Shown: positions 15,089 to 24,050 of the stretch, one piece after another
Layout: each line of letters opens with the position of its first letter
Numbering within the stretch: position 1 is the first letter of the stretch
Assembly: GCA_024278135.1 (NCBI GenBank)
Contig: JAJRTU010000066.1
Location: forward strand, 1-42,401
Direction of reading: 5' to 3'
Source of the DNA: Gammaproteobacteria bacterium
GTDB taxonomy: Bacteria; Pseudomonadota; Gammaproteobacteria; Eutrophobiales; Eutrophobiaceae
DNA: 42,401 nt
Notes under the pieces: generated by a model
The model's input: only the letters and a program-made list of their open reading frames with translations
Database searches by the model: none
Told to the model about the DNA's origin: nothing
Translations under genes and position numbers: made by a program

Positions 15089-16405
15089 CTATAAATAATC
15101 GTCCAGTTTCATCGCGTCCATCCCGGGGATCTGTTTGCGCTCGAAATCATCTCGGCGATGGAAGGGTTTTGTCGCATCGATTAACAATCTTCCCCAATGG
15201 TCCTTGTTGTCATCCCGATAAAAACCGGGAATATCCTTAAGGATCTGCGCCCGGGTATCCGCCCTTCCCCTGGATAAATAGGCCCACCAGACATCATTCA
15301 GATCATAGATATTGACGTCATCATCCACCACAATACAGGTCTTGCTGTAATCCATATGTGCGGCGACAGCGGCCAGCAATACTTTGCGTGCGTGGCCTTC
15401 ATATTCCTGCCGGATCTGTACAACGGTATTCATTAGAAAGGGATGGCAGGCAACGTTGACGATTCCGGGCAGCTGATCGCAGAGATAAGCATAGATCCGG
15501 GCCGCCGTCGTGTAATCCAGTGGATACATATCTTCAGCCGTACCGCAAACAATACTGTGAAACACCGGCTCACGACGCCAGCTGACATGGGATACCTTAA
15601 AGACATGATTATCGCCAACCGGGACGTAATATCCCATGAACTCTCCAAACGGGCCTTCCGGTTTCAATGTATCGGGTAAAAAATATCCTTCAATGACAAT
15701 TTCGGTGTCGGTCGGGAACATCAGATCAATCGTTTCGCAGGATGCCATGCTGACAGTGCTGCCCTTGATGATGGCGGCCATCTGCAATTCATCTTCTTCG
15801 GCAGACAATGAAGCGCAGGCGCTGACAAACAACTCTGGAGATGTCCCCAGCAGCAGTGCGGCAGCCAGAGGTTCATTTCTCGCCTCTGCCGCTTTGTAGT
15901 AGTGATACAGATCGTGAGAACTGCCCAGCCTGACACGTAATTCATCATTATCAACGTACATGGAGCGATGAAAGGAAAGATTGTGGATACCGGTATCCGG
16001 GTGTTTTGCCATAAACACAGCAGACGTGAAATAAGGCCCGGCATCTTTTTCAAAATAGGTGATTAGCGGCAGGTCGCTCAGCTTGCCGGAGATTCTGTCT
16101 TTTCCCGATACCACCTCCCTGTACTTGTTCGCGACGGATGTCTTCAACTGACGATGCAGTTCCGACCAGCGTTGACAAAAGTTACCGTCATCCGCACCGA
16201 CAATTTCACATAAGCGTTGGCGAGATCCGTAGAGATTGGTGGCAACAGGCATATTCGTTCCAGTGACACTGTTAAACATAACAGCGGCATCATCACGTTG
16301 TTGCGACAATAGTGTTAATCCGGCAAGTTCAAATTCCGGATCTACCGGTTTTCGAATGCTTCTAATGTCCCCACGCTCAGTCAATTTTTTTAAATATTCA
16401 CGCAT
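15089..16405 (-). CDS. UbiD-family (prFMN-dependent) decarboxylase
   Basis: The 438-residue protein has the UbiD layout: an N-terminal mixed domain, HNLSFHRSMYV with the expected arginine of the E-R-E catalytic set, and the glutamate-rich EGPFGEFMGYY block that faces the prenylated FMN. VDDDVNIYDLNDVWWA matches the conserved C-terminal region. Such enzymes reversibly decarboxylate aromatic, heteroaromatic or alpha,beta-unsaturated acids; activity needs a UbiX prenyltransferase, not present in the window. It lies 60 bases downstream of an exported amidohydrolase on the same strand. This is too far from any ubiquinone gene to be assumed to be UbiD itself; a catabolic role is likelier. Confidence 0.85.
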   Translation of the reverse strand: MREYLKKLTERGDIRSIRKPVDPEFELAGLTLLSQQRDDAAVMFNSVTGTNMPVATNLYGSRQRLCEIVGADDGNFCQRWSELHRQLKTSVANKYREVVSGKDRISGKLSDLPLITYFEKDAGPYFTSAVFMAKHPDTGIHNLSFHRSMYVDNDELRVRLGSSHDLYHYYKAAEARNEPLAAALLLGTSPELFVSACASLSAEEDELQMAAIIKGSTVSMASCETIDLMFPTDTEIVIEGYFLPDTLKPEGPFGEFMGYYVPVGDNHVFKVSHVSWRREPVFHSIVCGTAEDMYPLDYTTAARIYAYLCDQLPGIVNVACHPFLMNTVVQIRQEYEGHARKVLLAAVAAHMDYSKTCIVVDDDVNIYDLNDVWWAYLSRGRADTRAQILKDIPGFYRDDNKDHWGRLLIDATKPFHRRDDFERKQIPGMDAMKLDDYL

Positions 16406-20355: not shown

Positions 20356-20829
20356 TTATTTGTTCAACCACTGAAACAATTCAACGGTATACCCTCCCGG
20401 GTCTTTAATCAAAAACGCCCGTATCGGCACATTATCGCTGTTATGGATTTCTTTTAATACCGGCACATCCGGGTTTGCCTTCACCCTGTTGTACCAGAGA
20501 TCAACATTATCAACAACGATACTCAGCATAACCGCGTTAGTCTTCTGTACTTTGTGATAGGCGTTACCACCTTCCTTGACGACACCAATATAGGAGGTTG
20601 CCGTCAGTTTGTACAGGCTGACCCAGTCATCTTGAAAGCTCGCTTCGAGTCCCAGTATGTCCGCATAAAAGTGCCGGGGTGCAGTCATATCCCTGTAATA
20701 AAGCATGACATAGCTCTCTGTTATTTTTGATTCCATCCCTGTGACTTCCAGATTCTCTGTCGCAGAAAGGCTGCCACAAAATAATGGAATAGTCATTATT
20801 CTCAACATTACTGAAAGTATTGTCTTCAT
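20356..20829 (-). CDS. VOC-family protein with an N-terminal signal peptide
   Basis: A 157-residue protein. After an export-type leader (MLRIMTIPLFCGSLSATE) comes one VOC domain: YVMLYYRDMTAPRHFYADILGLEASF, then MLSIVVDNVDLWYNRV, ending DPGGYTVELFQW. The first module lacks the usual leading histidine (YVMLYY), so metal binding may be partial and the fold may only bind a ligand. VOC proteins are generally cytoplasmic, so the leader is unusual. It is 10 bases downstream of another exported protein, which suggests that the two work together in the periplasm. An internal methionine near residue 32 (MESKITES) could give a cytoplasmic form. Confidence 0.75.
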   Translation of the reverse strand: MKTILSVMLRIMTIPLFCGSLSATENLEVTGMESKITESYVMLYYRDMTAPRHFYADILGLEASFQDDWVSLYKLTATSYIGVVKEGGNAYHKVQKTNAVMLSIVVDNVDLWYNRVKANPDVPVLKEIHNSDNVPIRAFLIKDPGGYTVELFQWLNK

Positions 20830-23307: not shown

Positions 23308-23398
23308 CCGGTATGATTAGGGTCATCATTCTAATAATCCAGACCCGCCTGCCGGCAACTGGATTACACTTTGTCGAGTAACAATACAGGAGAAAAAG

Positions 23399-23626
23399 AT
23401 GAGAAAACATACCGAAAACGAGCCTGAACAGGATACCGACGAAATTTCACGACGACAGTTTTTACGTTCCGCCGCCAGTGGCGGGGTGGCCCTGGCTGTT
23501 GCCACTGCTTTGCCATCAGACAGTATCGCCGGAGAAAATAAAACCGGCTCGAAAACAAAACATCCTTACGAAGAAATTCTGTCTCGCTGTGGCAGTGAGT
23601 TTGGTGACATCAGAACTTCAACATAA
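23399..23626 (+). CDS. Tat-signal mini-protein of unknown function
   Basis: The product is only 75 residues. It carries a textbook twin-arginine signal, SRRQFLRSAASGGVALAVATA (RR at 18-19), followed by a mature part of about 30 residues, HPYEEILSRCGSEFGD, with a single cysteine. AGGAG lies 9 bases before the ATG, so it looks translated. Such short Tat proteins can be small partner subunits that carry a cofactor enzyme across the membrane or stand as truncated remnants; the unique cysteine could be a ligand. It is 18 bases upstream of a NIPSNAP/EthD-like gene, so the two are probably one unit. Confidence 0.7.
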   Translation: MRKHTENEPEQDTDEISRRQFLRSAASGGVALAVATALPSDSIAGENKTGSKTKHPYEEILSRCGSEFGDIRTST

Positions 23627-23644
23627 TCATCAGGGGGAAAGAAC

Positions 23645-24001
23645 ATGTCTGTATTTGAAGCAGAAAGCTGGTTTGTGGCCGAGGGCAAAGACAAGGAACA
23701 TGATATCGAAATGCGACGCTGGCTTCGTTGGGTCAAGGAGCATCGTGAATTGTTCCCGGAGTGGAAAAGCCTGCGTTATTTTGACCTGCACGCGGCGGGA
23801 GATGATTCCGGGCGTAAGATGGTGATCTGGGAATACGAAAGCTTTGCAGAATACGAAAAATACAAAACACGTCGTAAAGATTACGAAGGCCCGTATAAAG
23901 AATACAAGGAGAATGATCCCTACTATAAAGGTGTGTTCATTCACAGCCGTATGAAGGTGGAATTCTGGAAGGATCTGGAGCGAGAATTCTGGATTGAGTA
24001 G
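23645..24001 (+). CDS. Small ferredoxin-fold (NIPSNAP/EthD-like) protein, putative
   Basis: The 118-residue product has charged, aromatic-rich text such as MRRWLRWVKEHRELFPEWKSLRYFDLH and KMVIWEYESFAEYEKYKTRR. This is the rhythm of dimeric alpha-beta barrel proteins of the NIPSNAP/EthD kind, where a WEYESFAEYEK strand-helix unit is typical. I am not certain of the family. These proteins are often small catabolic accessory or lyase-like enzymes. GGGGGA precedes the ATG. It is immediately followed by a strong hairpin terminator, so it ends the unit that starts with the Tat mini-protein or nhaC. Confidence 0.55.
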   Translation: MSVFEAESWFVAEGKDKEHDIEMRRWLRWVKEHRELFPEWKSLRYFDLHAAGDDSGRKMVIWEYESFAEYEKYKTRRKDYEGPYKEYKENDPYYKGVFIHSRMKVEFWKDLEREFWIE

Positions 24002-24014
24002 CGTATGAAACGAC

Positions 24015-24050
24015 AAAGGCCCCGACTGTTCAAAGTCGGGGCCTTTTTTA
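24015..24050. terminator. Bidirectional intrinsic terminator
   Basis: AAAGGCCCCGACT and AGTCGGGGCCTTT form a perfect 13-bp stem with a GTTCAA loop, followed by T-run on the plus strand and A-run on the minus side. It sits between the convergent NIPSNAP-like gene and the TonB receptor gene and can stop both. Confidence 0.9.

Follow-up and report, generated by a model that had tools for sequence, protein, structure and literature searches.

A 75-residue twin-arginine protein as the putative minimal export carrier of an adjacent NIPSNAP-like barrel protein

Two small adjacent genes on a 42,401-nucleotide stretch of gammaproteobacterial DNA (hereafter the window) appear to form an export unit: on comparative sequence evidence, the 75-residue product of the first gene (hereafter mini-Tat) is probably a minimal twin-arginine (Tat) carrier, or "hitchhiker" partner, that would take the folded 118-residue product of the second gene to the periplasm through a C-terminal motif. 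That the Tat protein may be a carrier subunit for its neighbor was one of two possibilities raised in the original prediction, and it is the best-supported reading because the pairing of the two genes is obligate and because the Tat signal has been naturally fused onto the partner in one genome. The compared sequences show directly that both genes exist, that the first bears a Tat signal and a conserved tail, that their adjacency is obligate, and that a natural fusion is devoid of this tail; the barrel fold of the partner is predicted from them. The predicted layout of a Tat-signal ORF of 75 residues, a 118-residue ORF behind it, and then a terminator is indeed present in full, as judged from the sequence and from a match to the Tat-signal model TIGR01409, and the two ORFs are real genes. 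They lie downstream of an NhaC-type antiporter gene and upstream of a convergent TonB receptor gene, with the following features:

23388..23392, forward strand: ribosome-binding site of the mini-Tat gene (AGGAG), read from the sequence
23399..23626, forward strand: mini-Tat gene, 75 aa; TIGR01409 match above the NCBIfam cut-off, kept in 18 genomes, dN/dS below 1
23399..23530, forward strand: predicted Tat signal peptide (SRRQFLR, h-region, and SIA, cut after residue 44), from TIGR01409 and by eye
23531..23623, forward strand: predicted mature part of mini-Tat, 31 residues, a variable linker and a conserved tail, from the alignment
23588..23605, forward strand: C-terminal motif [YC]G[SGPA]E[FL][GA] of mini-Tat, here CGSEFG (residues 64–69), the proposed docking element, from the alignment
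23632..23637, forward strand: ribosome-binding site of the 118-aa gene (AGGGGG), read from the sequence
23645..24001, forward strand: gene of the 118-aa NIPSNAP-like alpha+beta-barrel protein, devoid of export signal and proposed as the Tat passenger, from AF2 and Foldseek
24015..24046, forward strand: intrinsic terminator, a 13-pair stem-loop followed by a T tract

The translated mini-Tat ORF contains SRRQFL and a hydrophobic stretch, and it matches TIGR01409 over residues 16–44 with 24.9 bits against a cut-off of 16.7. Judged by eye, cleavage may plausibly take place at SIA/G (A44/G45); the mature part was thus rightly predicted to be very short, albeit with 31 residues after this cut rather than 30. 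The twin arginines are invariant across all aligned homologs, as are the glycine and the glutamate of the [YC]G[SGPA]E[FL][GA] tail in the alignment of 17 mini-Tats. These proteins have in common just the Tat signal and this C-terminal tail, the sequence varying elsewhere, so that the conserved portion of the mature part amounts to about 10 residues. The single cysteine of the window's protein (C64), on which the original prediction laid stress, is replaced by a tyrosine in most homologs and is therefore not generally essential, which led us to discard a lipoprotein, heme, or thiol site at this position. Since pairwise dN/dS values range from 0.09 to 0.46 in the pairs tested, mini-Tat is, by this measure, under purifying selection. 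In this regard, the possibility that mini-Tat is what remains of a truncated gene, or that its ORF is untranslated, either of which was named beforehand as a potential refutation, would fit a protein that is short and variable outside its signal and tail, but it retains hardly any likelihood: 18 of 18 homologs are short and complete, the selection acting on the tested pairs speaks against an untranslated ORF, and profile searches returned no long homolog, on which ground a truncated gene was ruled out.

The 118-residue protein begins at its first beta strand and lacks a signal of its own. Folded by AF2 from an alignment of ten homologs, it adopts a beta-alpha-beta-beta-alpha-beta arrangement of ferredoxin-like fold (pLDDT 87.4), and Foldseek places this model among the NIPSNAP-like, ABM (antibiotic-biosynthesis-monooxygenase), and IsdG-type dimeric barrels, its best PDB match being the NIPSNAP-like 5kak (E 3e-5, TM 0.58, 13% identity). 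The earlier description of a small alpha-beta barrel-like protein agrees with both analyses. At the sequence level, PF07978 (NIPSNAP) is weakly matched by 4 of 10 relatives (best E 0.0023); the window's own protein does not reach its gathering score and has no significant match to any family model, and a sequence search of the PDB with the family returned no match. The protein, modeled here as a monomer, probably folds as a dimer and is predicted to be a rare NIPSNAP-like alpha+beta-barrel protein. It would thus share its fold with the NIPSNAP, ABM, and IsdG dimeric alpha+beta barrels, but it differs from them by its 13% identity, by scores below those of the family models, and by its pairing with a Tat-signal partner.

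The 118-aa gene was found in 4 of the 53 genomes searched in the order, in the window's own genome alone within a phylum sample of 399 genomes, in 3 of 301 sphingomonad-family genomes, and in 4 of the 347 genomes searched in the phylum Acidobacteriota, where one family carries it in 8 of 38; a scan across the collection further yielded MAGs of Marinimicrobia and Bathyarchaeota. Whether conserved homologs always pair was a check proposed with the original prediction, and in bacterial lineages they do: each of the 18 genomes found in which the 118-aa gene stands separate (from Gammaproteobacteria, sphingomonads, Acidobacteriota with their relatives, and one Marinimicrobia MAG, the G497 fusion and the Bathyarchaeota copies described below being excluded) has a mini-Tat gene directly upstream, at an intergenic distance of −14 to +21 nt. 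The outer neighbors of the pair vary by lineage, and the pairing is therefore not merely shared synteny. Conversely, in profile searches of several hundred genomes, confident mini-Tat matches (above 60 bits) occurred only where the 118-aa gene is present; the next-best matches, at 31.6 bits or less, were mostly restricted to the Tat signal and lay inside longer reading frames, so that no convincing orphan mini-Tat was found in these lineages, to which the orphan search was confined and whose genome set partly overlaps that of the search for the 118-aa gene. Searches of plasmids, phages, and viral contigs gave no match. With regard to the Marinimicrobia locus, the 118-residue protein of this MAG (L015, 4313–4929) is 83% identical to that of the window and groups with Gammaproteobacteria, which reflects either a recent transfer or mis-binning of a MAG so labeled.

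A single preprotein made by stop-codon read-through or programmed frameshifting would fit the ORFs of the window, G001, and G016, which lie in one frame and are separated by just one TAA. However, homologs show all three relative frames with gaps from −14 to +21, on which ground we ruled out such a product, and a separate ribosome-binding site precedes the 118-aa gene in most cases, which makes a joint preprotein highly improbable. Because both window ORFs are in one frame, the read-through chain could nonetheless be folded with AF2 as a proxy for a complex; with a shallow alignment and the dimer partner absent, mini-Tat came out disordered in this model (pLDDT about 25–40), with no confident docking.

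A single fusion is known, that of G497. Here, the Tat signal is joined straight onto the 118-residue domain (MNNDRHSMDRRTFLSSGILGGMILSAAALDGKQKSKTSVYEVESW...) and the YGxEFG tail motif is absent; contig ends interrupt this gene, which was assembled from two of them, an overlapping second contig of G497 reaching the C-terminus. In a maximum-likelihood tree, the fusion is sister to the normal pair of G1203 (support 96/93), and it is therefore derived from the paired state. The loss of the tail is what a docking-tail carrier predicts, insofar as a covalently attached signal would make the tail unneeded, and the fusion itself argues that the 118-residue protein acts outside the cytoplasm. It is in this light that one may consider mini-Tat as the source of an independent exported peptide, the 118-residue protein being a cytoplasmic partner such as a processing or regulatory protein. 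The two Bathyarchaeota MAG copies of the 118-aa gene, which lack both mini-Tat and a Tat signal, would suit this alternative; yet G497 carries the Tat signal on the 118-residue protein itself, the mature part of mini-Tat is unconserved but for its few tail residues, and the genomes searched hold no orphan mini-Tat, so that we regard it as quite improbable. The other possibility raised in the original prediction, that the short peptide has a role in its own right, found no positive support. The Bathyarchaeota copies form one group inside the 118-aa tree (support 96/96) and may have lost mini-Tat after a transfer, stem from errors in the MAGs, or represent a cytoplasmic variant. At one of these loci (L018, 6001–6357), an in-frame TAA interrupts codon 35 of the 118-aa gene, through decay or sequence error.

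MelC1 is a small protein encoded beside its partner and required by it. It is described as a caddie for tyrosinase in PMC6312201. The mini-Tat tail could likewise be a functional subunit or caddie that aids the folding or cofactor loading of the barrel, export being one consequence. Such a role would account for a tail conservation tighter than a bare tether might require, and the MelC1 caddie model (NF047833) is weakly matched by 3 of 12 mini-Tats, whose 118-residue partner is not a tyrosinase. However, this weak match probably falls within the signal region, and the G497 fusion, if functional, does without the tail; we therefore hold a caddie to be unlikely, albeit the least so of the alternatives considered.

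The carrier reading has parallels among established hitchhiker systems. Tat export of this kind is known for hydrogenases, PaoABC, and FAD-glucose dehydrogenase, whose carriers are HybO of hydrogenase-2, PaoA, and the small (gamma) subunit of BcGDH, the latter with a mature part of 121 aa (PMC10924467, PMC4273604, PMC6719666). In all three, the Tat signal is borne by one subunit and a signal-less partner is taken across, and the same layout is proposed for mini-Tat, where three marks of a carrier are seen: a twin-arginine signal on mini-Tat, a partner without signal, and linkage of their genes in 18 of 18 cases. The known carriers are, however, folded subunits of cofactor enzymes, whereas mini-Tat has a mature part of some 31 residues with a short conserved tail, and its partner is a 118-residue barrel protein without recognized cofactor. 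To our knowledge, no Tat carrier is smaller than mini-Tat, and a literature search found no paper naming both twin-arginine and NIPSNAP. TIGR02811 (formate dehydrogenase region TAT target), a 66-position model, describes proteins of similar size and matches the signal part of mini-Tat; the score is 21.0 bits against a cut-off of 48.45, with the signal region alone matched. No formate dehydrogenase was recognized beside the pair, either in the window, which has NhaC and the TonB receptor there, or in the other loci read, and membership was ruled out on this sub-cut-off score and these neighbors.

Proteobacterial pairs are found near an SNF/NSS symporter, a TonB receptor, and a signal-peptide VOC protein, and some also near UbiD and sugar-acid enzymes, which suggests that a small molecule is taken up and degraded. 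Counted by loci, the NSS symporter (7), TonB receptor (6), and VOC protein (5) are all lineage-limited, Acidobacteriota pairs have other neighbors, and no universal third component emerged across the loci compared. In the window, a catabolic cluster surrounds the pair (1520–30376), with a TPP enzyme, a C-N hydrolase, an enolase-superfamily protein, two SNF/NSS symporters, KDPG aldolase, a PfkB kinase, UbiD, the VOC protein, the NhaC antiporter, and the TonB receptor; parts of it recur near the pair in G016 and G021. UbiD-family genes also lie beside or near the 118-aa gene in lineages far from that of the window, in a Bathyarchaeota MAG (L097, 6989–8662) and at L071 (6818–8221), that of the window being at 15089–16405. 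The VOC/glyoxalase-family protein of the window (20356–20829) has an apparent Sec-type N-terminal signal and is possibly a second periplasmic component; G021 and three sphingomonads have relatives of it close to the pair.

Taken as a mechanism, the 118-residue NIPSNAP-like protein would fold in the cytoplasm, probably as a dimer, without an export signal, the twin-arginine signal being provided in trans by the 75-residue protein, whose [YC]GxE[FL][GA] tail would bind the folded partner. Both proteins would then be exported together to the periplasm by the Tat translocase, where the mini-Tat signal may be cleaved off or kept as a membrane anchor, and where the barrel protein would act, probably by binding small molecules or handling them enzymatically. 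Physical binding, Tat-dependent co-export, and periplasmic activity are what we infer from the genes and their distribution. More tentatively, and with somewhat less conviction than for the carrier role as such, mini-Tat may be no more than a detachable ticket for export, which contributes its Tat signal in trans, docks by a tail of about 10 residues, and has no other function; a direct fusion would have taken its place at least once.

If this is true, a signal peptide and a short tail would suffice to send a folded protein through Tat in trans, hitchhiker carriers would have a lower size limit than the one known so far, and the pair would offer a compact natural tool for folded-protein export. 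It would also suggest that other tiny "hypothetical" Tat ORFs are carriers for signal-less neighbors, whose periplasmic location would now be escaping signal predictors.
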